Of a DNA stretch of 64,000 bases, positions 13,064 through 47,820 are shown piece after piece. The stretch covers positions 1,433,501 through 1,497,500 of the forward strand of contig NW_027506898.1 in the NCBI RefSeq assembly GCF_052324685.1. Reading direction: 5' to 3'. The notes under the pieces are model-generated. The model saw nothing but the letters and a program-made list of their open reading frames with translations, searched no databases and was not told where the DNA came from. Position numbers and translations under genes: made by a program. The stretch comes from Brachyhypopomus gauderio. Its lineage: Eukaryota; Chordata; Actinopteri; Gymnotiformes; Hypopomidae. Each line of letters opens with the position of its first letter. The stretch's first letter is position 1.

Positions 13064-13135
13064 AGGTTCCACTGAGAGTTGAACTCAGATTGCTGGATTT
13101 AGAGTCCAGAGTGCTAACCATTACACCATGGAACC
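13064..13135 (-). tRNA. tRNA-Sup-CTA: tRNA with CTA anticodon (amber type), class A body
   Basis: A class A tRNA-Gln with one change, G36A, so the anticodon loop is CTCTAAA and the anticodon CTA, complementary to UAG. The rest of the body, including acceptor, D arm, T stem CTGAG/CTCAG, A and B boxes and T4 terminator, equals the class A reference. If transcribed and charged it would read amber stop codons, most likely inserting glutamine; the same G36A change in bacterial tRNA-Gln makes a classic amber suppressor. It may equally be a drifting copy tolerated among many. Expression cannot be judged from the sequence. Confidence 0.92.
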
Positions 13136-13363
13136 TAAAAGATAAGTTCTGATTCTTCTGTTTTGCTGGGTTCACAGACCAAGTTAAGCTCAAAGTGACT
13201 TGTCTTGAGAGGATGCAAGTTGCAACAACTACAGACAAGGACTTCCAGCAACAAGATATTTAGTTGAGGTATTCGATTTGGTCAACTGAAAGACACTTTC
13301 TGTTTACAGTAGTCTTCAACAATGAAAGCTGGTACAATCCCAGATAAAGAGCATGTAGCAGAA

Positions 13364-13435
13364 AGGTTCCACCGAGAGTGGAACTCGGATTGCTGGATTC
13401 AGAGTCCAGAGTGCTAACCATTACACCATGGAACC
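13364..13435 (-). tRNA. tRNA-Gln-CTG: tRNA-Gln (CTG), class B, C57 variant
   Basis: Unit 13, B1. T loop TTCCACT: G57C replaces a near-invariant purine inside the B box, which may weaken TFIIIC binding and D/T loop contact. Confidence 0.88.
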
Positions 13436-13662
13436 TACATGAGACACTTCTGAGTCTTGTTTTGCTGGGTTCACAGACCAAGTTAAGCTCAAAGTGACTT
13501 GTCATGGGAGAATGCATGTTGCAACAACTACAGACAAGGACTTCCAGCAACAAGATAATTAGTTGAGGTATTTGATTTGGTCAACTGAAAGACACTTTCT
13601 GTTTACACTAGTCTTCAACAACGAAAGCTGGTACAACCCCAGATAAAGAGCATGTAGCAGAA

Positions 13663-13734
13663 AGGTTCCACCGAGAGTCGAACTCGGATCACTGGATTCA
13701 AAGTCCAGAGTGCTGACCATTACACCATGGAACC
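13663..13734 (-). tRNA. tRNA-Gln-TTG: tRNA-Gln (TTG)
   Basis: Unit 13, reference sequence. Confidence 0.97.
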
Positions 13735-13763
13735 CACAGCAAAAGTTGTTTCTAGCAAATGAG

Positions 13764-13803
13764 TTGCTGGATTCAGAGTCCAGAATGCTAACACCATGGA
13801 AAC
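13764..13803 (-). pseudogene. tRNA-Gln 5'-half fragment
   Basis: Unit 13, form 1. Confidence 0.88.
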
Positions 13804-14129
13804 AGCAAATAGGTTTCCAACTTCTCTGCCGTTGATTTCAGAGTCTGTTGTGCTTACTACTGCATCACGCAACCAAAGAAATTAGCTTTTGTGAATACTG
13901 TTTTGCTGAACACATAGCAAAACATCCTGTCCTGAGACCCTAGCATATTTGGATTTAAATGACTTCACCAATTCTAGGATAATCAGAAAGCTGTTTGCCA
14001 CAAGAACAAGCATGTAAAAATTCTGAAAACAATTCATGAAATATGCTGGAATTATATAGACCGCAAGCATGTGATAGAGCTTGCATGGAGAAAAGACCTG
14101 CAAGCTGGAATCAACACTAATGAATCAAA

Positions 14130-14201
14130 AGGTTCCACTGAGAGTTGAACTCAGATTGCTGGATTCAGAGTCCAGAGTGCTAACCATTACACCATGGAAC
14201 C
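14130..14201 (-). tRNA. tRNA-Gln-CTG: tRNA-Gln (CTG), class A
   Basis: Unit 14, reference sequence. Confidence 0.97.
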
Positions 14202-14429
14202 TAAAAGATAAGTTCTGATTCTTCTGTTTTGCTGGGTTCACAGACCAAGTTAAGCTCAAAGTGACTTGTCTTGAGAGGATGCAAGTTGCAACAACTACAG
14301 ACAAGGACTTCCAGCAACAAGATATTTAGTTGAGGTATTCGATTTGGTCAACTGAAAGACACTTTCTGTTTACAGTAGTCTTCAACAATGAAAGCTGGTA
14401 CAATCCCAGATAAAGAGCATGTAGCAGAA

Positions 14430-14501
14430 AGGTTCCACCGAGAGTCGAACTCGGATTGCTGGATTCAGAGTCCAGAGTGCTAACCATTACACCATGGAAC
14501 C
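14430..14501 (-). tRNA. tRNA-Gln-CTG: tRNA-Gln (CTG), class B
   Basis: Unit 14, B1, reference sequence. Confidence 0.97.
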
Positions 14502-14728
14502 TACATTAGACATTTCTGAGTCTTGTTTTGCTGGGTTCACAGACCAAGTTAAGCTCAAAGTGACTTGTCATGGGAGAATGCAGGTTGCAACAACTACAGA
14601 CAAGGACTTCCAGCAACAAGATAATTAGTAGAGGTATTTGATTTGGTCAACTGAAAGACACTTTCTGTTTACAGTAGTCTTCAACAATGAAAGCTGGTAC
14701 AATCCCAGATAAAGAGCATGTAGCAGAA

Positions 14729-14800
14729 AGGTTCCACCGAGAGTCGAACTCGGATTGCTGGATTCAGAGTCCAGAGTGCTAACCATTACACCATGGAACC
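14729..14800 (-). tRNA. tRNA-Gln-CTG: tRNA-Gln (CTG), class B
   Basis: Unit 14, B2, reference sequence. Confidence 0.97.
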
Positions 14801-15027
14801 TACATGAGACACTTCTGAGTCTTGTTTTGCTGGGTTCACAGACCAAGTTAAGCTCAAAGTGACTTGTCATGGGAGAATGCATGTTGCAACAACTACAGAC
14901 AAGGACTTCCAGCAACAAGATAATTAGTTGAGGTATTTGATTTGGTCAACTGAAAGACACTTTCTGTTTACACTAGTCTTCAACAACGAAAGCTGGTACA
15001 ACCCCAGATAAAGAGCATGTAGCAGAA

Positions 15028-15099
15028 AGGTTCCACCGAGAGTCGAACTCGGATTGCTGGATTCAGAGTCCAGAGTGCTAACCATTACACCATGGAACC
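15028..15099 (-). tRNA. tRNA-Gln-CTG: tRNA-Gln (CTG), class B
   Basis: Unit 14, B3, reference sequence. Confidence 0.97.
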
Positions 15100-15326
15100 T
15101 ACATTAGACATTTCTGAGTCTTGTTTTGCTGGGTTCACAGACCAAGTTAAGCTCAAAGTGACTTGTCATGGGAGAATGCAGGTTGCAACAACTACAGACA
15201 AGGACTTCCAGCAACAAGATAATTAGTAGAGGTATTTGATTTGGTCAACTGAAAGACACTTTCTGTTTACAGTAGTCTTCAACAATGAAAGCTGGTACAA
15301 TCCCAGATAAAGAGCATGTAGCAGAA

Positions 15327-15398
15327 AGGTTCCACCGAGAGTCGAACTCGGATTGCTGGATTCAGAGTCCAGAGTGCTAACCATTACACCATGGAACC
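15327..15398 (-). tRNA. tRNA-Gln-CTG: tRNA-Gln (CTG), class B
   Basis: Unit 14, B4, reference sequence. Confidence 0.97.
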
Positions 15399-15625
15399 TA
15401 CATTAGACATTTCTGAGTCTTGTTTTGCTGGGTTCACAGACCAAGTTAAGCTCAAAGTGACTTGTCATGGGAGAATGCAGGTTGCAACAACTACAGACAA
15501 GGACTTCCAGCAACAAGATAATTAGTAGAGGTATTTGATTTGGTCAACTGAAAGACACTTTCTGTTTACAGTAGTCTTCAACAATGAAAGCTGGTACAAT
15601 CCCAGATAAAGAGCATGTAGCAGAA

Positions 15626-15697
15626 AGGTTCCACCGAGAGTCGAACTCGGATTGCTGGATTCAGAGTCCAGAGTGCTAACCATTACACCATGGAACC
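15626..15697 (-). tRNA. tRNA-Gln-CTG: tRNA-Gln (CTG), class B
   Basis: Unit 14, B5, reference sequence. Confidence 0.97.
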
Positions 15698-15924
15698 TAC
15701 ATGAGACACTTCTGAGTCTTGTTTTGCTGGGTTCACAGACCAAGTTAAGCTCAAAGTGACTTGTCATGGGAGAATGCATGTTGCAACAACTACAGACAAG
15801 GACTTCCAGCAACAAGATAATTAGTTGAGGTATTTGATTTGGTCAACTGAAAGACACTTTCTGTTTACACTAGTCTTCAACAACGAAAGCTGGTACAACC
15901 CCAGATAAAGAGCATGTAGCAGAA

Positions 15925-15996
15925 AGGTTCCACCGAGAGTCGAACTCGGATTGCTGGATTCAGAGTCCAGAGTGCTAACCATTACACCATGGAACC
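15925..15996 (-). tRNA. tRNA-Gln-CTG: tRNA-Gln (CTG), class B
   Basis: Unit 14, B6, reference sequence. Confidence 0.97.
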
Positions 15997-16223
15997 TACA
16001 TTAGACATTTCTGAGTCTTGTTTTGCTGGGTTCACAGACCAAGTTAAGCTCAAAGTGACTTGTCATGGGAGAATGCAGGTTGCAACAACTACAGACAAGG
16101 ACTTCCAGCAACAAGATAATTAGTAGAGGTATTTGATTTGGTCAACTGAAAGACACTTTCTGTTTACAGTAGTCTTCAACAATGAAAGCTGGTACAATCC
16201 CAGATAAAGAGCATGTAGCAGAA

Positions 16224-16295
16224 AGGTTCCACCGAGAGTCGAACTCGGATTGCTGGATTCAGAGTCCAGAGTGCTAACCATTACACCATGGAACC
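16224..16295 (-). tRNA. tRNA-Gln-CTG: tRNA-Gln (CTG), class B
   Basis: Unit 14, B7, reference sequence. Confidence 0.97.
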
Positions 16296-16522
16296 TACAT
16301 GAGACACTTCTGAGTCTTGTTTTGCTGGGTTCACAGACCAAGTTAAGCTCAAAGTGACTTGTCATGGGAGAATGCAGGTTGCAACAACTACAGACAAGGA
16401 CTTCCAGCAACAAGATAATTAGTAGAGGTATTTGATTTGGTCAACTGAAAGACACTTTCTGTTTACAGTAGTCTTCAACAATGAAAGCTGGTACAATCCC
16501 AGATAAAGAGCATGTAGCAGAA

Positions 16523-16594
16523 AGGTTCCACCGAGAGTCGAACTCGGATCACTGGATTCAAAGTCCAGAGTGCTGACCATTACACCATGGAACC
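16523..16594 (-). tRNA. tRNA-Gln-TTG: tRNA-Gln (TTG)
   Basis: Unit 14, reference sequence. Confidence 0.97.
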
Positions 16595-16623
16595 CACAGC
16601 AAAAGTTGTTTCTAGCAAATGAG

Positions 16624-16663
16624 TTGCTGGATTCAGAGTTCAGAATGCTAACACCATGGAACC
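16624..16663 (-). pseudogene. tRNA-Gln 5'-half fragment
   Basis: Unit 14, form 2 (first appearance). Confidence 0.88.
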
Positions 16664-16989
16664 AACAAATAGGTTTCCAACTTCTCTGCCGTTGATTTCA
16701 GAGTCTGTTGTGCTTACTACTGCATCACGCAACCAAAGAAATTAGCTTTTGTGAATACTGTTTTGCTGAACACATAGCAAAACATCCTGTCCTGAGACCC
16801 TAGCATATTTGGATTTAAATGACTTCACCAATTCTAGGATAATCAGAAAGCTGTTTGCCACAAGAACAAGCATGTAAAAATTCTGAAAACAATTCATGAA
16901 ATATGCTGGAATTATATAGACCGCAAGCATGTGATAGAGCTTGCATGGAGAAAAGACCTGCAAGCTGGAATCAACACTAATGAATCAAA

Positions 16990-17061
16990 AGGTTCCACTG
17001 AGAGTTGAACTCAGATTGCTGGATTCAGAGTCCAGAGTGCTAACCATTACACCATGGAACC
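16990..17061 (-). tRNA. tRNA-Gln-CTG: tRNA-Gln (CTG), class A
   Basis: Unit 15, reference sequence. Confidence 0.97.
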
Positions 17062-17289
17062 TAAAAGATAAGTTCTGATTCTTCTGTTTTGCTGGGTTCA
17101 CAGACCAAGTTAAGCTCAAAGTGACTTGTCTTGAGAGGATGCAAGTTGCAACAACTACAGACAAGGACTTCCAGCAACAAGATATTTAGTTGAGGTATTC
17201 GATTTGGTCAACTGAAAGACACTTTCTGTTTACAGTAGTCTTCAACAATGAAAGCTGGTACAATCCCAGATAAAGAGCATGTAGCAGAA

Positions 17290-17361
17290 AGGTTCCACCG
17301 AGAGTCGAACTCGGATTGCTGGATTCAGAGTCCAGAGTGCTAACCATTACACCATGGAACC
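17290..17361 (-). tRNA. tRNA-Gln-CTG: tRNA-Gln (CTG), class B
   Basis: Unit 15, B1, reference sequence. Confidence 0.97.
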
Positions 17362-17588
17362 TACATGAGACACTTCTGAGTCTTGTTTTGCTGGGTTCAC
17401 AGACCAAGTTAAGCTCAAAGTGACTTGTCATGGGAGAATGCATGTTGCAACAACTACAGACAAGGACTTCCAGCAACAAGATAATTAGTTGAGGTATTTG
17501 ATTTGGTCAACTGAAAGACACTTTCTGTTTACAGTAGTCTTCAACAATGAAAGCTGGTACAATCCCAGATAAAGAGCATGTAGCAGAA

Positions 17589-17660
17589 AGGTTCCACCGA
17601 GAGTCGAACTCGGATTGCTGGATTCAGAGTCCAGAGTGCTAACCATTACACCATGGAACC
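17589..17660 (-). tRNA. tRNA-Gln-CTG: tRNA-Gln (CTG), class B
   Basis: Unit 15, B2, reference sequence. Confidence 0.97.
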
Positions 17661-17887
17661 TACATGAGACACTTCTGAGTCTTGTTTTGCTGGGTTCACA
17701 GACCAAGTTAAGCTCAAAGTGACTTGTCATGGGAGAATGCAGGTTGCAACAACTACAGACAAGGACTTCCAGCAACAAGATAATTAGTAGAGGTATTTGA
17801 TTTGGTCAACTGAAAGACACTTTCTGTTTACAGTAGTCTTCAACAATGAAAGCTGGTACAATCCCAGATAAAGAGCATGTAGCAGAA

Positions 17888-17959
17888 AGGTTCCACCGAG
17901 AGTCGAACTCGGATCACTGGATTCAAAGTCCAGAGTGCTGACCATTACACCATGGAACC
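17888..17959 (-). tRNA. tRNA-Gln-TTG: tRNA-Gln (TTG)
   Basis: Unit 15, reference sequence. Confidence 0.97.
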
Positions 17960-17988
17960 CACAGCAAAAGTTGTTTCTAGCAAATGAG

Positions 17989-18028
17989 TTGCTGGATTCA
18001 GAGTTCAGAATGCTAACACCATGGAACC
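17989..18028 (-). pseudogene. tRNA-Gln 5'-half fragment
   Basis: Unit 15, form 2. Confidence 0.88.
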
Positions 18029-18354
18029 AACAAATAGGTTTCCAACTTCTCTGCCGTTGATTTCAGAGTCTGTTGTGCTTACTACTGCATCACGCAACCA
18101 AAGAAATTAGCTTTTGTGAATACTGTTTTGCTGAACACATAGCAAAACATCCTGTCCTGAGACCCTAGCATATTTGGATTTAAATGACTTCACCAATTCT
18201 AGGATAATCAGAAAGCTGTTTGCCACAAGAACAAGCATGTAAAAATTCTGAAAACAATTCATGAAATATGCTGGAATTATATAGACCGCAAGCATGTGAT
18301 AGAGCTTGCATGGAGAAAAGACCTGCAAGCTGGAATCAACACTAATGAATCAAA

Positions 18355-18426
18355 AGGTTCCACTGAGAGTTGAACTCAGATTGCTGGATTCAGAGTCCAG
18401 AGTGCTAACCATTACACCATGGAACC
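18355..18426 (-). tRNA. tRNA-Gln-CTG: tRNA-Gln (CTG), class A
   Basis: Unit 16, reference sequence. Confidence 0.97.
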
Positions 18427-18654
18427 TAAAAGATAAGTTCTGATTCTTCTGTTTTGCTGGGTTCACAGACCAAGTTAAGCTCAAAGTGACTTGTCTTGAG
18501 AGGATGCAAGTTGCAACAACTACAGACAAGGACTTCCAGCAACAAGATATTTAGTTGAGGTATTCGATTTGGTCAACTGAAAGACACTTTCTGTTTACAG
18601 TAGTCTTCAACAATGAAAGCTGGTACAATCCCAGATAAAGAGCATGTAGCAGAA

Positions 18655-18726
18655 AGGTTCCACCGAGAGTCGAACTCGGATTGCTGGATTCAGAGTCCAG
18701 AGTGCTAACCATTACACCATGGAACC
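18655..18726 (-). tRNA. tRNA-Gln-CTG: tRNA-Gln (CTG), class B
   Basis: Unit 16, B1, reference sequence. Confidence 0.97.
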
Positions 18727-18953
18727 TACATGAGACACTTCTGAGTCTTGTTTTGCTGGGTTCACAGACCAAGTTAAGCTCAAAGTGACTTGTCATGGGA
18801 GAATGCATGTTGCAACAACTACAGACAAGGACTTCCAGCAACAAGATAATTAGTTGAGGTATTTGATTTGGTCAACTGAAAGACACTTTCTGTTTACAGT
18901 AGTCTTCAACAATGAAAGCTGGTACAATCCCAGATAAAGAGCATGTAGCAGAA

Positions 18954-19025
18954 AGGTTCCACCGAGAGTCGAACTCGGATCACTGGATTCAAAGTCCAGA
19001 GTGCTGACCATTACACCATGGAACC
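18954..19025 (-). tRNA. tRNA-Gln-TTG: tRNA-Gln (TTG)
   Basis: Unit 16, reference sequence. Confidence 0.97.
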
Positions 19026-19054
19026 CACAGCAAAAGTTGTTTCTAGCAAATGAG

Positions 19055-19094
19055 TTGCTGGATTCAGAGTTCAGAATGCTAACACCATGGAACC
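19055..19094 (-). pseudogene. tRNA-Gln 5'-half fragment
   Basis: Unit 16, form 2. Confidence 0.88.
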
Positions 19095-19420
19095 AACAAA
19101 TAGGTTTCCAACTTCTCTGCCGTTGATTTCAGAGTCTGTTGTGCTTACTACTGCATCACGCAACCAAAGAAATTAGCTTTTGTGAATACTGTTTTGCTGA
19201 ACACATAGCAAAACATCCTGTCCTGAGACCCTAGCATATTTGGATTTAAATGACTTCACCAATTCTAGGATAATCAGAAAGCTGTTTGCCACAAGAACAA
19301 GCATGTAAAAATTCTGAAAACAATTCATGAAATATGCTGGAATTATATAGACCGCAAGCATGTGATAGAGCTTGCATGGAGAAAAGACCTGCAAGCTGGA
19401 ATCAACACTAATGAATCAAA

Positions 19421-19492
19421 AGGTTCCACTGAGAGTTGAACTCAGATTGCTGGATTCAGAGTCCAGAGTGCTAACCATTACACCATGGAACC
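19421..19492 (-). tRNA. tRNA-Gln-CTG: tRNA-Gln (CTG), class A
   Basis: Unit 17, reference sequence. Confidence 0.97.
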
Positions 19493-19720
19493 TAAAAGAT
19501 AAGTTCTGATTCTTCTGTTTTGCTGGGTTCACAGACCAAGTTAAGCTCAAAGTGACTTGTCTTGAGAGGATGCAAGTTGCAACAACTACAGACAAGGACT
19601 TCCAGCAACAAGATATTTAGTTGAGGTATTCGATTTGGTCAACTGAAAGACACTTTCTGTTTACAGTAGTCTTCAACAATGAAAGCTGGTACAATCCCAG
19701 ATAAAGAGCATGTAGCAGAA

Positions 19721-19792
19721 AGGTTCCACCGAGAGTCGAACTCGGATTGCTGGATTCAGAGTCCAGAGTGCTAACCATTACACCATGGAACC
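19721..19792 (-). tRNA. tRNA-Gln-CTG: tRNA-Gln (CTG), class B
   Basis: Unit 17, B1, reference sequence. Confidence 0.97.
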
Positions 19793-20019
19793 TACATGAG
19801 ACACTTCTGAGTCTTGTTTTGCTGGGTTCACAGACCAAGTTAAGCTCAAAGTGACTTGTCATGGGAGAATGCATGTTGCAACAACTACAGACAAGGACTT
19901 CCAGCAACAAGATAATTAGTTGAGGTATTTGATTTGGTCAACTGAAAGACACTTTCTGTTTACAGTAGTCTTCAACAATGAAAGCTGGTACAATCCCAGA
20001 TAAAGAGCATGTAGCAGAA

Positions 20020-20091
20020 AGGTTCCACCGAGAGTCGAACTCGGATCACTGGATTCAAAGTCCAGAGTGCTGACCATTACACCATGGAACC
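20020..20091 (-). tRNA. tRNA-Gln-TTG: tRNA-Gln (TTG)
   Basis: Unit 17, reference sequence. Confidence 0.97.
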
Positions 20092-20120
20092 CACAGCAAA
20101 AGTTGTTTCTAGCAAATGAG

Positions 20121-20160
20121 TTGCTGGATTCAGAGTCCAGAATGCTAACACCATGGAAAC
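20121..20160 (-). pseudogene. tRNA-Gln 5'-half fragment
   Basis: Unit 17, form 1. Confidence 0.88.
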
Positions 20161-20486
20161 AGCAAATAGGTTTCCAACTTCTCTGCCGTTGATTTCAGAG
20201 TCTGTTGTGCTTACTACTGCATCACGCAACCAAAGAAATTAGCTTTTGTGAATACTGTTTTGCTGAACACATAGCAAAACATCCTGTCCTGAGACCCTAG
20301 CATATTTGGATTTAAATGACTTCACCAATTCTAGGATAATCAGAAAGCTGTTTGCCACAAGAACAAGCATGTAAAAATTCTGAAAACAATTCATGAAATA
20401 TGCTGGAATTATATAGACCGCAAGCATGTGATAGAGCTTGCATGGAGAAAAGACCTGCAAGCTGGAATCAACACTAATGAATCAAA

Positions 20487-20558
20487 AGGTTCCACTGAGA
20501 GTTGAACTCAGATTGCTGGATTTAGAGTCCAGAGTGCTAACCATTACACCATGGAACC
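20487..20558 (-). tRNA. tRNA-Sup-CTA: tRNA with CTA anticodon (amber type), class A body
   Basis: Unit 18. Same sequence as 13064..13135: only G36A, all stems paired, T4 terminator present. Confidence 0.92.
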
Positions 20559-20786
20559 TAAAAGATAAGTTCTGATTCTTCTGTTTTGCTGGGTTCACAG
20601 ACCAAGTTAAGCTCAAAGTGACTTGTCTTGAGAGGATGCAAGTTGCAACAACTACAGACAAGGACTTCCAGCAACAAGATATTTAGTTGAGGTATTCGAT
20701 TTGGTCAACTGAAAGACACTTTCTGTTTACAGTAGTCTTCAACAATGAAAGCTGGTACAATCCCAGATAAAGAGCATGTAGCAGAA

Positions 20787-20858
20787 AGGTTCCACCGAGA
20801 GTGGAACTCGGATTGCTGGATTCAGAGTCCAGAGTGCTAACCATTACACCATGGAACC
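20787..20858 (-). tRNA. tRNA-Gln-CTG: tRNA-Gln (CTG), class B, C57 variant
   Basis: Unit 18, B1, same G57C as 13364..13435. Confidence 0.88.
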
Positions 20859-21085
20859 TACATGAGACACTTCTGAGTCTTGTTTTGCTGGGTTCACAGA
20901 CCAAGTTAAGCTCAAAGTGACTTGTCATGGGAGAATGCATGTTGCAACAACTACAGACAAGGACTTCCAGCAACAAGATAATTAGTTGAGGTATTTGATT
21001 TGGTCAACTGAAAGACACTTTCTGTTTACACTAGTCTTCAACAACGAAAGCTGGTACAACCCCAGATAAAGAGCATGTAGCAGAA

Positions 21086-21157
21086 AGGTTCCACCGAGAG
21101 TCGAACTCGGATCACTGGATTCAAAGTCCAGAGTGCTGACCATTACACCATGGAACC
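21086..21157 (-). tRNA. tRNA-Gln-TTG: tRNA-Gln (TTG)
   Basis: Unit 18, reference sequence. Confidence 0.97.
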
Positions 21158-21186
21158 CACAGCAAAAGTTGTTTCTAGCAAATGAG

Positions 21187-21226
21187 TTGCTGGATTCAGA
21201 GTCCAGAATGCTAACACCATGGAAAC
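21187..21226 (-). pseudogene. tRNA-Gln 5'-half fragment
   Basis: Unit 18, form 1. Confidence 0.88.
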
Positions 21227-21552
21227 AGCAAATAGGTTTCCAACTTCTCTGCCGTTGATTTCAGAGTCTGTTGTGCTTACTACTGCATCACGCAACCAAA
21301 GAAATTAGCTTTTGTGAATACTGTTTTGCTGAACACATAGCAAAACATCCTGTCCTGAGACCCTAGCATATTTGGATTTAAATGACTTCACCAATTCTAG
21401 GATAATCAGAAAGCTGTTTGCCACAAGAACAAGCATGTAAAAATTCTGAAAACAATTCATGAAATATGCTGGAATTATATAGACCGCAAGCATGTGATAG
21501 AGCTTGCATGGAGAAAAGACCTGCAAGCTGGAATCAACACTAATGAATCAAA

Positions 21553-21624
21553 AGGTTCCACTGAGAGTTGAACTCAGATTGCTGGATTCAGAGTCCAGAG
21601 TGCTAACCATTACACCATGGAACC
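21553..21624 (-). tRNA. tRNA-Gln-CTG: tRNA-Gln (CTG), class A
   Basis: Unit 19, reference sequence. Confidence 0.97.
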
Positions 21625-21852
21625 TAAAAGATAAGTTCTGATTCTTCTGTTTTGCTGGGTTCACAGACCAAGTTAAGCTCAAAGTGACTTGTCTTGAGAG
21701 GATGCAAGTTGCAACAACTACAGACAAGGACTTCCAGCAACAAGATATTTAGTTGAGGTATTCGATTTGGTCAACTGAAAGACACTTTCTGTTTACAGTA
21801 GTCTTCAACAATGAAAGCTGGTACAATCCCAGATAAAGAGCATGTAGCAGAA

Positions 21853-23120: not shown

Positions 23121-23149
23121 CACAGCAAAAGTTGTTTCTAGCAAATGAG

Positions 23150-37966: not shown

Positions 37967-37995
37967 CACAGCAAAAGTTGTTTCTAGCAAATGAG

Positions 37996-38960: not shown

Positions 38961-39032
38961 AGGTTCCACCGAGAGTCGAACTCGGATCACTGGATTCAAA
39001 GTCCAGAGTGCTGACCATTACACCATGGAACC
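38961..39032 (-). tRNA. tRNA-Gln-TTG: tRNA-Gln (TTG)
   Basis: Unit 30, reference sequence. Confidence 0.97.
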
Positions 39033-39061
39033 CACAGCAAAAGTTGTTTCTAGCAAATGAG

Positions 39062-39101
39062 TTGCTGGATTCAGAGTCCAGAATGCTAACACCATGGAAA
39101 C
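39062..39101 (-). pseudogene. tRNA-Gln 5'-half fragment
   Basis: Unit 30, form 1. Confidence 0.88.
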
Positions 39102-39427
39102 AGCAAATAGGTTTCCAACTTCTCTGCCGTTGATTTCAGAGTCTGTTGTGCTTACTACTGCATCACGCAACCAAAGAAATTAGCTTTTGTGAATACTGTT
39201 TTGCTGAACACATAGCAAAACATCCTGTCCTGAGACCCTAGCATATTTGGATTTAAATGACTTCACCAATTCTAGGATAATCAGAAAGCTGTTTGCCACA
39301 AGAACAAGCATGTAAAAATTCTGAAAACAATTCATGAAATATGCTGGAATTATATAGACCGCAAGCATGTGATAGAGCTTGCATGGAGAAAAGACCTGCA
39401 AGCTGGAATCAACACTAATGAATCAAA

Positions 39428-39499
39428 AGGTTCCACTGAGAGTTGAACTCAGATTGCTGGATTCAGAGTCCAGAGTGCTAACCATTACACCATGGAACC
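39428..39499 (-). tRNA. tRNA-Gln-CTG: tRNA-Gln (CTG), class A
   Basis: Unit 31, reference sequence. Confidence 0.97.
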
Positions 39500-39727
39500 T
39501 AAAAGATAAGTTCTGATTCTTCTGTTTTGCTGGGTTCACAGACCAAGTTAAGCTCAAAGTGACTTGTCTTGAGAGGATGCAAGTTGCAACAACTACAGAC
39601 AAGGACTTCCAGCAACAAGATATTTAGTTGAGGTATTCGATTTGGTCAACTGAAATACACTTTCTGTTTACAGTAGTCTTCAACAATGAAAGCTGGTACA
39701 ATCCCAGATAAAGAGCATGTAGCAGAA

Positions 39728-39799
39728 AGGTTCCACCGAGAGTCGAACTCGGATTGCTGGATTCAGAGTCCAGAGTGCTAACCATTACACCATGGAACC
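39728..39799 (-). tRNA. tRNA-Gln-CTG: tRNA-Gln (CTG), class B
   Basis: Unit 31, B1, reference sequence. Confidence 0.97.
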
Positions 39800-40026
39800 T
39801 ACATTAGACATTTCTGAGTCTTGTTTTTCTGGGTTCACATACCAAGTTAAGCTCAAAGTGACTTGTCATGGGAGAATGCAGGTTGCAACAACTACAGACA
39901 AGGACTTCCAGCAACAAGATAATTAGTAGAGGTATTTGATTTGGTCAACTGAAAGACACTTTCTGTTTACAGTAGTCTTCAACAATGAAAGCTGGTACAA
40001 TCCCAGATAAAGAGCATGTAGCAGAA

Positions 40027-40098
40027 AGGTTCCACCGAGAGTCGAACTCGGATCACTGGATTCAAAGTCCAGAGTGCTGACCATTACACCATGGAACC
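40027..40098 (-). tRNA. tRNA-Gln-TTG: tRNA-Gln (TTG)
   Basis: Unit 31, reference sequence. Confidence 0.97.
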
Positions 40099-40127
40099 CA
40101 CAGCAAAAGTTGTTTCTAGCAAATGAG

Positions 40128-40167
40128 TTGCTGGATTCAGAGTCCAGAATGCTAACACCATGGAAAC
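40128..40167 (-). pseudogene. tRNA-Gln 5'-half fragment
   Basis: Unit 31, form 1. Confidence 0.88.
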
Positions 40168-40493
40168 AGCAAATAGGTTTCCAACTTCTCTGCCGTTGAT
40201 TTCAGAGTCTGTTGTGCTTACTACTGCATCACGCAACCAAAGAAATTAGCTTTTGTGAATACTGTTTTGCTGAACACATAGCAAAACATCCTGTCCTGAG
40301 ACCCTAGCATATTTGGATTTAAATGACTTCACCAATTCTAGGATAATCAGAAAGCTGTTTGCCACAAGAACAAGCATGTAAAAATTCTGAAAACAATTCA
40401 TGAAATATGCTGGAATTATATAGACCGCAAGCATGTGATAGAGCTTGCATGGAGAAAAGACCTGCAAGCTGGAATCAACACTAATGAATCAAA

Positions 40494-40565
40494 AGGTTCC
40501 ACTGAGAGTTGAACTCAGATTGCTGGATTCAGAGTCCAGAGTGCTAACCATTACACCATGGAACC
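40494..40565 (-). tRNA. tRNA-Gln-CTG: tRNA-Gln (CTG), class A
   Basis: Unit 32, reference sequence. Confidence 0.97.
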
Positions 40566-40793
40566 TAAAAGATAAGTTCTGATTCTTCTGTTTTGCTGGG
40601 TTCACAGACCAAGTTAAGCTCAAAGTGACTTGTCTTGAGAGGATGCAAGTTGCAACAACTACAGACAAGGACTTCCAGCAACAAGATATTTAGTTGAGGT
40701 ATTCGATTTGGTCAACTGAAATACACTTTCTGTTTACAGTAGTCTTCAACAATGAAAGCTGGTACAATCCCAGATAAAGAGCATGTAGCAGAA

Positions 40794-40865
40794 AGGTTCC
40801 ACCGAGAGTCGAACTCGGATTGCTGGATTCAGAGTCCAGAGTGCTAACCATTACACCATGGAACC
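40794..40865 (-). tRNA. tRNA-Gln-CTG: tRNA-Gln (CTG), class B
   Basis: Unit 32, B1, reference sequence. Confidence 0.97.
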
Positions 40866-41092
40866 TACATTAGACATTTCTGAGTCTTGTTTTGCTGGGT
40901 TCACAGACCAAGTTAAGCTCAAAGTGACTTGTCATGGGAGAATGCATGTTGCAACAACTACAGACAAGGACTTCCAGCAACAAGATAATTAGTTGAGGTA
41001 TTTGATTTGGTCAACTGAAAGACACTTTCTGTTTACAGTAGTCTTCAACAATGAAAGCTGGTACAATCCCAGATAAAGAGCATGTAGCAGAA

Positions 41093-41164
41093 AGGTTCCA
41101 CCGAGAGTCGAACTCGGATTGCTGGATTCAGAGTCCAGAGTGCTAACCATTACACCATGGAACC
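41093..41164 (-). tRNA. tRNA-Gln-CTG: tRNA-Gln (CTG), class B
   Basis: Unit 32, B2, reference sequence. Confidence 0.97.
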
Positions 41165-41391
41165 TACATGAGACACTTCTGAGTCTTGTTTTGCTGGGTT
41201 CACAGACCAAGTTAAGCTCAAAGTGACTTGTCATGGGAGAATGCATGTTGCAACAACTACAGACAAGGACTTCCAGCAACAAGATAATTAGTTGAGGTAT
41301 TTGATTTGGTCAACTGAAAGACACTTTCTGTTTACACTAGTCTTCAACAACGAAAGCTGGTACAACCCCAGATAAAGAGCATGTAGCAGAA

Positions 41392-41463
41392 AGGTTCCAC
41401 CGAGAGTCGAACTCGGATTGCTGGATTCAGAGTCCAGAGTGCTAACCATTACACCATGGAACC
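41392..41463 (-). tRNA. tRNA-Gln-CTG: tRNA-Gln (CTG), class B
   Basis: Unit 32, B3, reference sequence. Confidence 0.97.
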
Positions 41464-41690
41464 TACATTAGACATTTCTGAGTCTTGTTTTGCTGGGTTC
41501 ACAGACCAAGTTAAGCTCAAAGTGACTTGTCATGGGAGAATGCAGGTTGCAACAACTACAGACAAGGACTTCCAGCAACAAGATAATTAGTAGAGGTATT
41601 TGATTTGGTCAACTGAAAGACACTTTCTGTTTACAGTAGTCTTCAACAATGAAAGCTGGTACAATCCCAGATAAAGAGCATGTAGCAGAA

Positions 41691-41762
41691 AGGTTCCACC
41701 GAGAGTCGAACTCGGATTGCTGGATTCAGAGTCCAGAGTGCTAACCATTACACCATGGAACC
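41691..41762 (-). tRNA. tRNA-Gln-CTG: tRNA-Gln (CTG), class B
   Basis: Unit 32, B4, reference sequence. Confidence 0.97.
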
Positions 41763-41989
41763 TACATGAGACACTTCTGAGTCTTGTTTTGCTGGGTTCA
41801 CAGACCAAGTTAAGCTCAAAGTGACTTGTCATGGGAGAATGCATGTTGCAACAACTACAGACAAGGACTTCCAGCAACAAGATAATTAGTTGAGGTATTT
41901 GATTTGGTCAACTGAAAGACACTTTCTGTTTACACTAGTCTTCAACAACGAAAGCTGGTACAACCCCAGATAAAGAGCATGTAGCAGAA

Positions 41990-42061
41990 AGGTTCCACCG
42001 AGAGTCGAACTCGGATTGCTGGATTCAGAGTCCAGAGTGCTAACCATTACACCATGGAACC
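41990..42061 (-). tRNA. tRNA-Gln-CTG: tRNA-Gln (CTG), class B
   Basis: Unit 32, B5, reference sequence. Confidence 0.97.
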
Positions 42062-42288
42062 TACATTAGACATTTCTGAGTCTTGTTTTGCTGGGTTCAC
42101 AGACCAAGTTAAGCTCAAAGTGACTTGTCATGGGAGAATGCAGGTTGCAACAACTACAGACAAGGACTTCCAGCAACAAGATAATTAGTAGAGGTATTTG
42201 ATTTGGTCAACTGAAAGACACTTTCTGTTTACAGTAGTCTTCAACAATGAAAGCTGGTACAATCCCAGATAAAGAGCATGTAGCAGAA

Positions 42289-42360
42289 AGGTTCCACCGA
42301 GAGTCGAACTCGGATCACTGGATTCAAAGTCCAGAGTGCTGACCATTACACCATGGAACC
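42289..42360 (-). tRNA. tRNA-Gln-TTG: tRNA-Gln (TTG)
   Basis: Unit 32, reference sequence. Confidence 0.97.
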
Positions 42361-42389
42361 CACAGCAAAAGTTGTTTCTAGCAAATGAG

Positions 42390-42429
42390 TTGCTGGATTC
42401 AGAGTCCAGAATGCTAACACCATGGAAAC
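42390..42429 (-). pseudogene. tRNA-Gln 5'-half fragment
   Basis: Unit 32, form 1. Confidence 0.88.
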
Positions 42430-42755
42430 AGCAAATAGGTTTCCAACTTCTCTGCCGTTGATTTCAGAGTCTGTTGTGCTTACTACTGCATCACGCAACC
42501 AAAGAAATTAGCTTTTGTGAATACTGTTTTGCTGAACACATAGCAAAACATCCTGTCCTGAGACCCTAGCATATTTGGATTTAAATGACTTCACCAATTC
42601 TAGGATAATCAGAAAGCTGTTTGCCACAAGAACAAGCATGTAAAAATTCTGAAAACAATTCATGAAATATGCTGGAATTATATAGACCGCAAGCATGTGA
42701 TAGAGCTTGCATGGAGAAAAGACCTGCAAGCTGGAATCAACACTAATGAATCAAA

Positions 42756-42827
42756 AGGTTCCACTGAGAGTTGAACTCTGATTGCTGGATTTAGAGTCCA
42801 GAGTGCTAACCATTACACCATGGAACC
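42756..42827 (-). tRNA. tRNA-Sup-CTA: tRNA with CTA anticodon (amber type), A50 variant
   Basis: Unit 33, same bases as 28508..28579. Confidence 0.88.
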
Positions 42828-43055
42828 TAAAAGATAAGTTCTGATTCTTCTGTTTTGCTGGGTTCACAGACCAAGTTAAGCTCAAAGTGACTTGTCTTGA
42901 GAGGATGCAAGTTGCAACAACTACAGACAAGGACTTCCAGCAACAAGATATTTAGTTGAGGTATTCGATTTGGTCAACTGAAAGACACTTTCTGTTTACA
43001 GTAGTCTTCAACAATGAAAGCTGGTACAATCCCAGATAAAGAGCATGTAGCAGAA

Positions 43056-43127
43056 AGGTTCCACCGAGAGTCGAACTCGGATTGCTGGATTCAGAGTCCA
43101 GAGTGCTAACCATTACACCATGGAACC
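43056..43127 (-). tRNA. tRNA-Gln-CTG: tRNA-Gln (CTG), class B
   Basis: Unit 33, B1, reference sequence. Confidence 0.97.
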
Positions 43128-43354
43128 TACATGAGACACTTCTGAGTCTTGTTTTGCTGGGTTCACAGACCAAGTTAAGCTCAAAGTGACTTGTCATGGG
43201 AGAATGCATGTTGCAACAACTACAGACAAGGACTTCCAGCAACAAGATAATTAGTTGAGGTATTTGATTTGGTCAACTGAAAGACACTTTCTGTTTACAC
43301 TAGTCTTCAACAACGAAAGCTGGTACAACCCCAGATAAAGAGCATGTAGCAGAA

Positions 43355-43426
43355 AGGTTCCACCGAGAGTCGAACTCGGATTGCTGGATTCAGAGTCCAG
43401 AGTGCTAACCATTACACCATGGAACC
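43355..43426 (-). tRNA. tRNA-Gln-CTG: tRNA-Gln (CTG), class B
   Basis: Unit 33, B2, reference sequence. Confidence 0.97.
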
Positions 43427-43653
43427 TACGTTAGACACTTCTGAGTCTTGTTTTGCTCGGTTCACAGACCAAGTTAAGCTCAAAGTGACTTGTCATGGGA
43501 GAATGCAGGTTGCAACAACTACAGACAAGGACTTCCAGCAACAAGATAATTAGTTGAGGTATTTGATTTGGTCAACTGAAAGACACTTTCTGTTTACAGT
43601 AGTCTTCAACAATGAAAGCTGGTACAATCCCAGATAAAGAGCATGTAGCAGAA

Positions 43654-43725
43654 AGGTTCCACCGAGAGTCGAACTCGGATCACTGGATTCAAAGTCCAGA
43701 GTGCTGACCATTACACCATGGAACC
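43654..43725 (-). tRNA. tRNA-Gln-TTG: tRNA-Gln (TTG)
   Basis: Unit 33, reference sequence; gcaacag upstream flank. Confidence 0.97.
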
Positions 43726-43754
43726 CACAGCAACAGTTGTTTCTAGCAAATGAG

Positions 43755-43794
43755 TTGCTGGATTCAGAGTCCAGAATGCTAACACCATGGAACC
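43755..43794 (-). pseudogene. tRNA-Gln 5'-half fragment
   Basis: Unit 33, form 3. Confidence 0.88.
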
Positions 43795-44120
43795 AGCAAA
43801 TAGGTTTCCAACTTCTCTGCCATTGATTTCAGAGTCTGTTGTGCTTACTACTGCATCACGCAACCAAAGAAATTAGCTTTTGTGAATACTGTTTTGCTGA
43901 ACACATAGCAAAACATCCTGTCCTGAGACCCTAGCATATTTGGATTTAAATGAATTCACCAATTCTAGGATAATCAGAAAGCTGTTTGCCACAAGAACAA
44001 GCATGTAAAAATTCTGAAAACAATTCATGAAATATGCTGGAATTATAAAGACCGCAAGCATGTGATAGAGCTTGCATGGAGAAAAGACCTGCAAGCTGGA
44101 ATCAACACTAATGAATCAAA

Positions 44121-44192
44121 AGGTTCCACTGAGAGTTGAACTCAGATTGCTGGATTCAGAGTGCAGAGTGCTAACCATTACACCATGGAACC
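44121..44192 (-). tRNA. tRNA-Gln-CTG: tRNA-Gln (CTG), class A, C30 variant
   Basis: Unit 34, C30-C40 mismatch. Confidence 0.88.
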
Positions 44193-44420
44193 TAAAAGAT
44201 AAGTTCTGATTCTTCTGTTTTGCTGGGTTCACAGACCAAGTTAAGCTCAAAGTGACTTGTCTTGAGAGGATGCAAGTTGCAACAACTACAGACAAGGACT
44301 TCCAGCAACAAGATATTTAGTTGAGGTATTCGATTTGGTCAACTGAAAGACACTTTCTGTTTACAGTAGTCTTCAACAATGAAAGCTGGTACAATCCCAG
44401 ATAAAGAGCATGTAGCAGAA

Positions 44421-44492
44421 AGGTTCCACCGAGAGTCGAACTCGGATTGCTGGATTCAGAGTCCAGAGTGCTAACCATTACACCATGGAACC
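44421..44492 (-). tRNA. tRNA-Gln-CTG: tRNA-Gln (CTG), class B
   Basis: Unit 34, B1, reference body but with the class A upstream flank, so TTTT lies just upstream of its 5' end. Confidence 0.97.
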
Positions 44493-44720
44493 TAAAAGAT
44501 AAGTTCTGATTCTTCTGTTTTGCTGGGTTCACAGACCAAGTTAAGCTCAAAGTGACTTGTCTTGAGAGGATGCAAGTTGCAACAACTACAGACAAGGACT
44601 TCCAGCAACAAGATATTTAGTTGAGGTATTCGATTTGGTCAACTGAAAGACACTTTCTGTTTACAGTAGTCTTCAACAATGAAAGCTGGTACAATCCCAG
44701 ATAAAGAGCATGTAGCAGAA

Positions 44721-44792
44721 AGGTTCCACCGAGAGTCGAACTCGGATTGCTGGATTCAGAGTCCAGAGTGCTAACCATTACACCATGGAACC
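44721..44792 (-). tRNA. tRNA-Gln-CTG: tRNA-Gln (CTG), class B
   Basis: Unit 34, B2, reference sequence. Confidence 0.97.
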
Positions 44793-45019
44793 TACATTAG
44801 ACATTTCTGAGTCTTGTTTTTCTGGGTTCACATACCAAGTTAAGCTCAAAGTGACTTGTCATGGGAGAATGCAGGTTGCAACAACTACAGACAAGGACTT
44901 CCAGCAACAAGATAATTAGTAGAGGTATTTGATTTGGTCAACTGAAAGACACTTTCTGTTTACAGTAGTCTTCAACAATGAAAGCTGGTACAATCCCAGA
45001 TAAAGAGCATGTAGCAGAA

Positions 45020-45091
45020 AGGTTCCACCGAGAGTCGAACTCGGATCACTGGATTCAAAGTCCAGAGTGCTGACCATTACACCATGGAACC
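45020..45091 (-). tRNA. tRNA-Gln-TTG: tRNA-Gln (TTG)
   Basis: Unit 34, reference sequence. Confidence 0.97.
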
Positions 45092-45120
45092 CACAGCAAA
45101 AGTTGTTTCTAGCAAATGAG

Positions 45121-45160
45121 TTGCTGGATTCAGAGTCCAGAATGCTAACACCATGGAAAC
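45121..45160 (-). pseudogene. tRNA-Gln 5'-half fragment
   Basis: Unit 34, form 1. Confidence 0.88.
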
Positions 45161-45486
45161 AGCAAATAGGTTTCCAACTTCTCTGCCGTTGATTTCAGAG
45201 TCTGTTGTGCTTACTACTGCATCACGCAACCAAAGAAATTAGCTTTTGTGAATACTGTTTTGCTGAACACATAGCAAAACATCCTGTCCTGAGACCCTAG
45301 CATATTTGGATTTAAATGACTTCACCAATTCTAGGATAATCAGAAAGCTGTTTGCCACAAGAACAAGCATGTAAAAATTCTGAAAACAATTCATGAAATA
45401 TGCTGGAATTATATAGACCGCAAGCATGTGATAGAGCTTGCATGGAGAAAAGACCTGCAAGCTGGAATCAACACTAATGAATCAAA

Positions 45487-45558
45487 AGGTTCCACTGAGA
45501 GTTGAACTCAGATTGCTGGATTCAGAGTCCAGAGTGCTAACCATTACACCATGGAACC
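45487..45558 (-). tRNA. tRNA-Gln-CTG: tRNA-Gln (CTG), class A
   Basis: Unit 35, reference sequence. Confidence 0.97.
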
Positions 45559-45786
45559 TAAAAGATAAGTTCTGATTCTTCTGTTTTGCTGGGTTCACAG
45601 ACCAAGTTAAGCTCAAAGTGACTTGTCTTGAGAGGATGCAAGTTGCAACAACTACAGACAAGGACTTCCAGCAACAAGATATTTAGTTGAGGTATTCGAT
45701 TTGGTCAACTGAAATACACTTTCTGTTTACAGTAGTCTTCAACAATGAAAGCTGGTACAATCCCAGATAAAGAGCATGTAGCAGAA

Positions 45787-45858
45787 AGGTTCCACCGAGA
45801 GTCGAACTCGGATTGCTGGATTCAGAGTCCAGAGTGCTAACCATTACACCATGGAACC
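45787..45858 (-). tRNA. tRNA-Gln-CTG: tRNA-Gln (CTG), class B
   Basis: Unit 35, B1, reference sequence. Confidence 0.97.
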
Positions 45859-46085
45859 TACATTAGACATTTCTGAGTCTTGTTTTGCTGGGTTCACAGA
45901 CCAAGTTAAGCTCAAAGTGACTTGTCATGGGAGAATGCATGTTGCAACAACTACAGACAAGGACTTCCAGCAACAAGATAATTAGTTGAGGTATTTGATT
46001 TGGTCAACTGAAAGACACTTTCTGTTTACAGTAGTCTTCAACAATGAAAGCTGGTACAATCCCAGATAAAGAGCATGTAGCAGAA

Positions 46086-46157
46086 AGGTTCCACCGAGAG
46101 TCGAACTCGGATTGCTGGATTCAGAGTCCAGAGTGCTAACCATTACACCATGGAACC
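46086..46157 (-). tRNA. tRNA-Gln-CTG: tRNA-Gln (CTG), class B
   Basis: Unit 35, B2, reference sequence. Confidence 0.97.
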
Positions 46158-46384
46158 TACATGAGACACTTCTGAGTCTTGTTTTGCTGGGTTCACAGAC
46201 CAAGTTAAGCTCAAAGTGACTTGTCATGGGAGAATGCATGTTGCAACAACTACAGACAAGGACTTCCAGCAACAAGATAATTAGTTGAGGTATTTGATTT
46301 GGTCAACTGAAAGACACTTTCTGTTTACACTAGTCTTCAACAACGAAAGCTGGTACAACCCCAGATAAAGAGCATGTAGCAGAA

Positions 46385-46456
46385 AGGTTCCACCGAGAGT
46401 CGAACTCGGATTGCTGGATTCAGAGTCCAGAGTGCTAACCATTACACCATGGAACC
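46385..46456 (-). tRNA. tRNA-Gln-CTG: tRNA-Gln (CTG), class B
   Basis: Unit 35, B3, reference sequence. Confidence 0.97.
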
Positions 46457-46683
46457 TACATTAGACATTTCTGAGTCTTGTTTTGCTGGGTTCACAGACC
46501 AAGTTAAGCTCAAAGTGACTTGTCATGGGAGAATGCAGGTTGCAACAACTACAGACAAGGACTTCCAGCAACAAGATAATTAGTAGAGGTATTTGATTTG
46601 GTCAACTGAAAGACACTTTCTGTTTACAGTAGTCTTCAACAATGAAAGCTGGTACAATCCCAGATAAAGAGCATGTAGCAGAA

Positions 46684-46755
46684 AGGTTCCACCGAGAGTC
46701 GAACTCGGATTGCTGGATTCAGAGTCCAGAGTGCTAACCATTACACCATGGAACC
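46684..46755 (-). tRNA. tRNA-Gln-CTG: tRNA-Gln (CTG), class B
   Basis: Unit 35, B4, reference sequence. Confidence 0.97.
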
Positions 46756-46982
46756 TACATGAGACACTTCTGAGTCTTGTTTTGCTGGGTTCACAGACCA
46801 AGTTAAGCTCAAAGTGACTTGTCATGGGAGAATGCATGTTGCAACAACTACAGACAAGGACTTCCAGCAACAAGATAATTAGTTGAGGTATTTGATTTGG
46901 TCAACTGAAAGACACTTTCTGTTTACACTAGTCTTCAACAACGAAAGCTGGTACAACCCCAGATAAAGAGCATGTAGCAGAA

Positions 46983-47054
46983 AGGTTCCACCGAGAGTCG
47001 AACTCGGATTGCTGGATTCAGAGTCCAGAGTGCTAACCATTACACCATGGAACC
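46983..47054 (-). tRNA. tRNA-Gln-CTG: tRNA-Gln (CTG), class B
   Basis: Unit 35, B5, reference sequence. Confidence 0.97.
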
Positions 47055-47281
47055 TACATTAGACATTTCTGAGTCTTGTTTTGCTGGGTTCACAGACCAA
47101 GTTAAGCTCAAAGTGACTTGTCATGGGAGAATGCAGGTTGCAACAACTACAGACAAGGACTTCCAGCAACAAGATAATTAGTAGAGGTATTTGATTTGGT
47201 CAACTGAAAGACACTTTCTGTTTACAGTAGTCTTCAACAATGAAAGCTGGTACAATCCCAGATAAAGAGCATGTAGCAGAA

Positions 47282-47353
47282 AGGTTCCACCGAGAGTCGA
47301 ACTCGGATCACTGGATTCAAAGTCCAGAGTGCTGACCATTACACCATGGAACC
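47282..47353 (-). tRNA. tRNA-Gln-TTG: tRNA-Gln (TTG)
   Basis: Unit 35, reference sequence. Confidence 0.97.
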
Positions 47354-47382
47354 CACAGCAAAAGTTGTTTCTAGCAAATGAG

Positions 47383-47422
47383 TTGCTGGATTCAGAGTCC
47401 AGAATGCTAACACCATGGAAAC
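47383..47422 (-). pseudogene. tRNA-Gln 5'-half fragment
   Basis: Unit 35, form 1. Confidence 0.88.
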
Positions 47423-47748
47423 AGCAAATAGGTTTCCAACTTCTCTGCCGTTGATTTCAGAGTCTGTTGTGCTTACTACTGCATCACGCAACCAAAGAAA
47501 TTAGCTTTTGTGAATACTGTTTTGCTGAACACATAGCAAAACATCCTGTCCTGAGACCCTAGCATATTTGGATTTAAATGACTTCACCAATTCTAGGATA
47601 ATCAGAAAGCTGTTTGCCACAAGAACAAGCATGTAAAAATTCTGAAAACAATTCATGAAATATGCTGGAATTATATAGACCGCAAGCATGTGATAGAGCT
47701 TGCATGGAGAAAAGACCTGCAAGCTGGAATCAACACTAATGAATCAAA

Positions 47749-47820
47749 AGGTTCCACTGAGAGTTGAACTCTGATTGCTGGATTTAGAGTCCAGAGTGCT
47801 AACCATTACACCATGGAACC
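47749..47820 (-). tRNA. tRNA-Sup-CTA: tRNA with CTA anticodon (amber type), A50 variant
   Basis: Unit 36, same bases as 28508..28579. Confidence 0.88.

Follow-up and report, generated by a model that had tools for sequence, protein, structure and literature searches.

The E. coli supE, yeast SUP70 and ciliate tRNA-Gln-CUA tRNAs are glutamine-type amber suppressors that are known to work. Prediction has added further candidates: 153 suppressor tRNAs, one CTA among them, are reported for Didemnum vexillum (PMC8704543), one cluster in a zebrafish tRNA study includes tRNA-Sup-TTA (PMC11417395), and Sup-TTA is given as predicted in 21.65% of surveyed eukaryotes (PMC9858662). Zebrafish tRNA clusters are described as very large, with their genes nearly all parallel (PMC2888827). 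The human gene tRNA-Gln-CTG-6-1 has been prime-edited to a suppressor, and with conversion only partial, at a mean of 29%, a single-copy reporter is reported to have shown no significant readthrough (PMC12675287). Predicted suppressor tRNAs are no rarity among animals, and the initial annotation overstated the case in calling a set of potential suppressor genes unusual in an animal genome.

The window, a stretch of 64,000 nucleotides from Brachyhypopomus gauderio, contains 187 tRNA-Gln genes as called by ARAGORN (134 CTG, 47 TTG and 6 CTA), all on the minus strand and falling into three classes (48 A, 92 B and 47 C). It belongs to a 587-gene array of 204 kb that reaches the end of its contig (C54) and reappears at the start of another (C69, examined over 10 kb); the 216.6-kb stretch analysed contains 0 N. 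Genome-wide there are 1152 minus-strand core matches, 586 of them within the C54 stretch analysed; for the other 566, C69 was the only contig among the matches listed. The consensus bodies of the array are well formed by both Rfam scores and RNA folding, and in the window classes B and C are followed by T3 rather than T4. The CTA rows below come from ARAGORN and sequence comparison.

1..64000, minus strand: portion of the tRNA-Gln array, A(CTG)-B(CTG)n-C(TTG), with spacings of about 300/299/467 bp
13061..13064, minus strand: run of four T (T4, U73 included), a putative Pol III terminator for copy 13064
13064..13135, minus strand: class A tRNA-Gln, CTA anticodon, otherwise unchanged
20487..20558, minus strand: class A tRNA-Gln, CTA anticodon, otherwise unchanged
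28508..28579, minus strand: class A tRNA-Gln, CTA anticodon and T50A (50-64 mismatch)
34267..34338, minus strand: class A tRNA-Gln, CTA anticodon and T50A
42756..42827, minus strand: class A tRNA-Gln, CTA anticodon and T50A
47749..47820, minus strand: class A tRNA-Gln, CTA anticodon and T50A

The initial annotation had described these six CTA copies, with G36A in each, an A50-A64 mismatch in four and intact promoter boxes and T4 terminator, and our analysis agrees on every one of these points. In copies 13064 and 20487, G36A is the sole difference from the commonest class A sequence; in the remaining four it is joined by T50A, and pair 50-64 is broken. The C54 array as a whole has 17 CTA copies among its 587 genes. 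In all 17 the 3' flank is that of class A, TTTTGATT, a T4 run counting U73, and the CUA anticodon sits in a normal seven-base loop (CTCTAAA). Thirteen of the 17 are otherwise perfect class A genes with an intact cloverleaf, which makes them possible suppressors, provided that they are transcribed; in the other four one T-stem pair is mismatched and the T arm is predicted to be disturbed. Both their score and their Gln body place the CTA genes in the Rfam tRNA family (RF00005) as glutamine-type members: two copies scored 65.9 bits against 65.5 for CTG class A, and one copy with T50A still scored 58.9, the cut-off being 29. RNA folding gave CTG and CTA bodies one and the same cloverleaf at -23.2 kcal/mol, and the CTA body with T50A a disturbed T arm at -22.5 kcal/mol.

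Pyrrolysine tRNAs have a 6-bp anticodon stem and a short D loop and variable loop. The 'tRNA-Pyl' label given by ARAGORN tracks the CTA anticodon and was rejected: these genes have a 5-bp anticodon stem and a Gln body that differs from their CTG siblings at one or two bases. Plastid-ycf2 Rfam matches on the opposite strand were weak (23.6-27.3 bits against a cut-off of 65.7) and were disregarded.

The picture in the initial annotation was incomplete, as the array also contains other odd anticodons (CCG in four genes, CTT in one and CTC in one of the 587) together with stem-breaking and T-loop alleles. CTA thus looks like one product of a general drift. Among position-36 variants of one exact core we found 19 genome-wide, all on C54 (17 CTA, one CTT and one CTC). 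The ochre counterpart, TTA, gave no match in a search with one exact core and was absent from the position-36 variants. Position-35 variants with the exact core also numbered 0, a pattern that misses the four CCG copies because they carry G30C as well, which shows its limit.

The tRNA bodies hold 52 distinct new alleles, with two odd-length genes, 1296970 (truncated) and 1485643, excluded from the per-site counts. Four fall at the three anticodon sites, where simple proportion predicts about 2.2 (52 x 3/72), so one suppressor-type allele is unsurprising. T-loop and B-box sites carry new alleles too, and many alleles break stems. CTA, with 17 copies, is the third most copied of the 52, after two with 31 and 21. 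Distinct alleles per site in tRNA relative to spacer came to 0.81 for class A, 1.13 for B and 1.20 for C, and Fisher tests on variable sites gave p values of 0.19, 0.68 and 0.46 respectively. The bodies thus vary about as much as the spacers, with the anticodon sites not spared, which shows little or no constraint on individual copies. Stem-breaking alleles were fewer than expected (17 of 52 against 46%, p 0.034), a hint of weak selection on the copies. Nothing in the array sequence supports selection for CTA.

Sixteen of the 17 CTA copies have a block of 3.8-10 kb, at least 3762 bp, in common with another CTA copy, with ungapped near-identical spans of, for example, 9579, 10042, 9614, 3762, 6005 and 5065 bp. 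The exception is copy 1399986, whose longest common span is 2862 bp. These blocks bear out the suggestion that the genes spread by array duplication. They rule out six independent mutations and make six separate events unnecessary, since one or two G36A mutations suffice. The CTA copies fall on two flanking haplotypes. The -14C marker is present in 11 (1385528-1414742), and also in six CTG copies, and is absent from the six CTA copies of the window; a distinct upstream haplotype is found in two of the 17. CTA copy 1396488 and CTG copy 1387960 have 9664 bp in common, with at most four mismatches per side, so that room must be left for conversion or recurrent mutation. Tree parsimony was uninformative, with two changes when the tRNA was included and 13 on spacers only, the spacers leaving the CTA copies ungrouped; recombination probably breaks the tree.

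T50A occurs in four of the 17 CTA genes, whereas the C54 array's remaining 137 full-length class A genes all lack it. It is attractive to see it as a second hit that disarmed CTA, but as the four copies probably reflect one inherited event they are no proof of this.

The array spacers had a CpG observed/expected ratio of 0.149 and the array in its entirety one of 0.252. By comparison, the 12-kb left flank gave 0.535 and a 10-kb sample of an Ile/Ala array 0.53. Within the tRNA bodies, transitions had occurred at 10 of 12 CpG sites and at 17 of 96 other C/G sites. The spacer depletion suggests a footprint of germline methylation. The search outside the array turned up a single Gln gene whose T arm is canonical (TTG, on C12), although it may have missed Gln genes that are divergent or lie in stretches masked as N. 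A wholly silent array is less likely for that reason: the scarcity of Gln genes elsewhere argues for the array being used, while CpG decay argues for its methylation.

It seems probable that the CTA genes reflect tolerated anticodon drift multiplied by array turnover, and not a selected suppressor system. One or two G36A mutations in a class A gene would have been multiplied by unequal exchange or block duplication, a mechanism that we infer, in stretches of about 4-10 kb. With over a thousand copies, each would be nearly free of selection, so that anticodons, stems and T-loops drift and CTA appears as one among several anticodon products. The CTA genes would then yield little or no active suppressor tRNA: the array may be methylated and only weakly used, or their share of 1.5-3% of the Gln genes may be tolerated, and for such tolerance we count the prime-edited human gene as a precedent.

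A wrong base in a repeat that is hard to assemble is very improbable. C54 ends and C69 begins inside the array, but CTA is found in 17 copies with differing linked markers (-14C in 11, T50A in four, the upstream haplotype in two), the change is not of the homopolymer type and the stretch analysed is free of Ns. It is possible, though doubtful, that the array consists of dead or satellite-like tRNA repeats that turnover alone maintains, while other Gln genes serve translation. The scant constraint per copy, the CpG depletion, the T3 runs that follow class B and class C genes of the window and the altered T-loop bases would all fit, but the well-formed consensus bodies and the single canonical-T-arm gene found elsewhere speak against it. 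This reading overlaps with that of tolerated drift.

We regard as unlikely a low-level natural pool of amber suppressor, made by transcription of the CTA genes, chiefly in oocytes, and charging of their products with glutamine. The fold and T4 are intact in 13 of the 17 copies, the array may be the main source of Gln tRNA, and there is a parallel in zebrafish, whose maternal tRNAs are reported to derive from repeats (PMC11417395). In zebrafish csad, too, UAG is read as Gln, which its authors ascribe to probable mispairing of a CAG-reading tRNA (PMC5484112). Against such a pool stand the CpG decay, suggestive of germline methylation, the lack of any sign of selection on CTA and the presence of other misreading anticodons in the array. 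Less likely still is the more specific proposal that the array is the main tRNA-Gln source and is used in oocytes, where the 13 intact CTA genes would supply a Gln-inserting amber suppressor at about 1-3% of the Gln tRNA pool in eggs. If true, this would be a natural, heritable and copy-variable vertebrate suppressor.

The locus matters on either outcome. If the array is silent, it is a clear record of how tRNA genes, anticodon included, drift at over a thousand copies. If it is expressed, it offers a natural vertebrate amber suppressor and a gauge of how far animals tolerate stop-codon suppression, a question now posed by suppressor-tRNA therapy.

Set beside known systems, the array resembles the very large tRNA gene groupings of zebrafish and stickleback (PMC2888827), but has 587 genes in 204 kb given over to nearly one amino acid (Gln, CTG and TTG); the parts of the literature on teleost tRNA clusters that we consulted describe no comparable Gln array. 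With supE, SUP70 and the ciliate tRNAs the CTA genes have in common a CUA anticodon on tRNA-Gln, here known from sequence alone. They resemble the tRNAscan-SE 'Sup' genes of eukaryotes in that several copies of a tRNA-like body carry an anticodon complementary to a stop codon and have a predicted function; unlike those, all 17 CTA anticodons are on tRNA-Gln in one array, and drift and block copying can be traced copy by copy. As with the prime-edited human tRNA-Gln-CTG-6-1 (PMC12675287), a vertebrate tRNA-Gln-CTG gene has been turned to the suppressor type among many normal genes, but here the change is natural and present in 17 copies within an array.

The initial annotation placed six class A tRNA-Gln genes with the UAG-complementary anticodon CTA (G36A) in the window, and comparison of ARAGORN calls with the class A consensus showed both their coordinates and their base changes to be correct. 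They belong to an array whose 187 tRNA genes in the window (134 CTG, 47 TTG, 6 CTA) all lie on the minus strand. The repeat order is regular, a class A gene (CTG), usually at least one class B gene (CTG), and then a class C gene (TTG), with spacings of about 300, 299 and 467 bp; 48 genes belong to class A, 92 to class B and 47 to class C. Inspection by eye also revealed a decayed tRNA-Gln-like piece at window 12694-12740, with counterparts at the equivalent point of other 467-bp spacers; it probably represents a fossil fourth gene belonging to the repeat.

The array starts at position 1295684 of C54, the contig whose positions 1433501-1497500 form the window, and runs to the contig end at 1500095, which lies within it. 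It holds 587 tRNA genes: 404 CTG, 160 TTG, 17 CTA, 4 CCG, 1 CTT and 1 CTC. Another contig, C69, begins within a similar array on the same strand. A 33-base tRNA-Gln core, allowing up to three mismatches, matched 1152 times on the minus strand and once on the plus strand of the 796.5-Mb assembly (840 contigs), with 586 of the minus-strand matches in the C54 stretch analysed. Left of the array lies a TFIIE beta exon, whose peptide matches PDB TFIIE beta (E 1.7e-16). C54 also carries, by eye, Tc1-like remnants and, between 1338059 and 1341308, an insert of about 3 kb that interrupts a B unit; its ends resemble each other, it contains short internal repeats, and it looks like a piggyBac-type DNA transposon. 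Taken together, the exon and these elements suggest a vertebrate genome, probably that of a fish.

All 17 CTA copies of the array, including the six in the window, are class A. G36A is the only difference from the consensus in two of the window copies, while the other four also carry T50A, a 50-64 mismatch in the T stem:

Window 28508: CTA copy with T50A
Window 34267: CTA copy with T50A
Window 42756: CTA copy with T50A
Window 47749: CTA copy with T50A

The remaining 13 of the 17 have no further change. Rfam scores and folding are nearly the same for CTA and CTG genes; T50A costs 7 bits in Rfam and disturbs the predicted T arm. T50A was seen only on CTA copies, as though a second hit had weakened the suppressor, and probably represents one inherited event. 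Every CTA copy has the 3' flank TTTTGATT, a T4 run if U73 is counted. None of the 139 class B and C genes in the window (of 187 genes in all) has more than a T3 run directly after it; most commonly a T4 comes only 37-523 bases further along, or is absent from the next 600 or so. As class A genes end in T4, the CTA copies fall within the class with the best terminator. Transcripts of B and C genes might therefore be joined or read through.

For 16 of the 17 CTA copies, another CTA copy matches over an ungapped stretch of 3762-10042 bp (at most three mismatches each side), which suggests that they multiplied through copying of larger blocks. A 9664-bp span is also common to one CTA and one CTG copy, however, and this counts against a simple story of spread. 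The marker -14C is present in the 11 CTA copies left of the window and in six CTG copies, and absent from the six window CTA copies. Both a single origin with conversion and two separate origins fit.

Other anticodons have changed in tRNA-Gln bodies outside the window, giving potential missense tRNAs:

C54:1408347, 1422506, 1418540, 1419607, 1423873 and 1426305: anticodons CTT (1 copy), CTC (1) and CCG (4), with G30C as a further change in the CCG copies

Across 585 of the 587 genes we counted 67 distinct alleles off the class consensus; exchange between classes leaves 52 of them unexplained. Four of these 52 are anticodon alleles (about 2.2 expected by length), all three possible changes of base 36 occur across classes A and B, and CTA ranks third by copy number (31, 21, 17). 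Distinct alleles per site are roughly equally frequent in tRNA bodies and spacers (ratios 0.81, 1.13 and 1.20 for A, B and C). Variable sites in tRNA and spacer were as follows:

Array, class A: 13/72 vs 156/611
Array, class B: 29/72 vs 82/221
Array, class C: 14/72 vs 34/221
Window, class A: 4/72 vs 33/620
Window, class B: 8/72 vs 43/227 (p 0.15)
Window, class C: 4/72 vs 42/620

Within the window, classes B and C had a lower mean diversity in their tRNA than in their spacers (B 0.0061 vs 0.0602, C 0.0034 vs 0.0125), and stem-breaking alleles were fewer than expected (17/52 vs 46%, p 0.034), so weak selection on copies is conceivable, mainly in B and C. In class A, which bears the CTA copies, diversity was not lower in tRNA (0.0086 vs 0.0071), and the allele and diversity comparisons showed no selection.

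The lines of evidence on use of the array disagree. CpG observed/expected for the whole array is 0.252 (spacers 0.149, tRNA bodies 0.489); the left flank has 0.535, and 15 pooled 1-kb contig samples give 0.558 (single values 0.26 to 1.18). The expected transition is found at 10/12 CpG sites of the tRNA bodies and 17/96 other C/G sites (p 1e-5), or at 4/6 CpG sites when three that separate classes A and B are excluded (p 0.016). Depletion and transitions together are a compositional signature of methylation in the germline; tRNA genes can be repressed by methylation (PMC8113476). The three T-arm CpG sites differ between the A and B consensus each as CpG decay predicts, and we infer that the differences arose in that direction; the 50-64 pair goes from C-G in B to T-A in A, keeping the pairing. 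A second tRNA array differs from the Gln array in its CpG ratio (0.53 in a 10-kb sample):

C54:58001-68000 (further samples at 120 kb and 180 kb): Ile-AAT genes, Ala-AGC genes on the opposite strand, period about 769 bp

No changed anticodon was called among its 16 genes in 10 kb.

Against the methylation mark stands the scarcity of Gln genes elsewhere. The canonical tRNA-Gln T arm (at most one mismatch) was found once in the genome:

C12:4361966-4362037: isolated tRNA-Gln-TTG with canonical body, T6-A67 pair (C6-G67 in the array)

Three Gln core patterns gave no further plus-strand match genome-wide, and nothing else before C54 among the matches listed, apparently in contig order. If there are no other Gln genes, CTG decoding would fall to the array, or else to the C12 TTG gene through wobble. 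Zebrafish, where repeats are reported to give maternal tRNAs and isolated genes later ones (PMC11417395), offers a possible middle way between a silent and a used array.

The best-supported explanation of the CTA copies is anticodon drift in a huge array where single copies hardly matter. Array size would make each copy nearly dispensable, allowing anticodons to drift, and block copying would then multiply CTA. CTA genes make up 2.9% (17/587) of the C54 array, or 1.5% when the roughly 1152 genome-wide core matches are the denominator, a share that would probably be tolerated even if transcribed; tolerated human tRNA mutations reportedly include anticodon changes that make natural suppressors. 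The mostly open-access literature searched yielded no description of a tRNA-Gln array with CTA copies. Large tRNA clusters in teleosts (PMC2888827) and anticodon shifts in eukaryotes (PMC3923123) are already on record, and suppressor-type tRNA genes as such are known as predictions in many genomes: 153 are reported for Didemnum vexillum (145 TCA, 7 TTA, 1 CTA; PMC8704543), Sup-TTA for 21.65% of surveyed eukaryotes (PMC9858662), and many Sup-CTA within LTR elements of rust fungi (PMC10886601).
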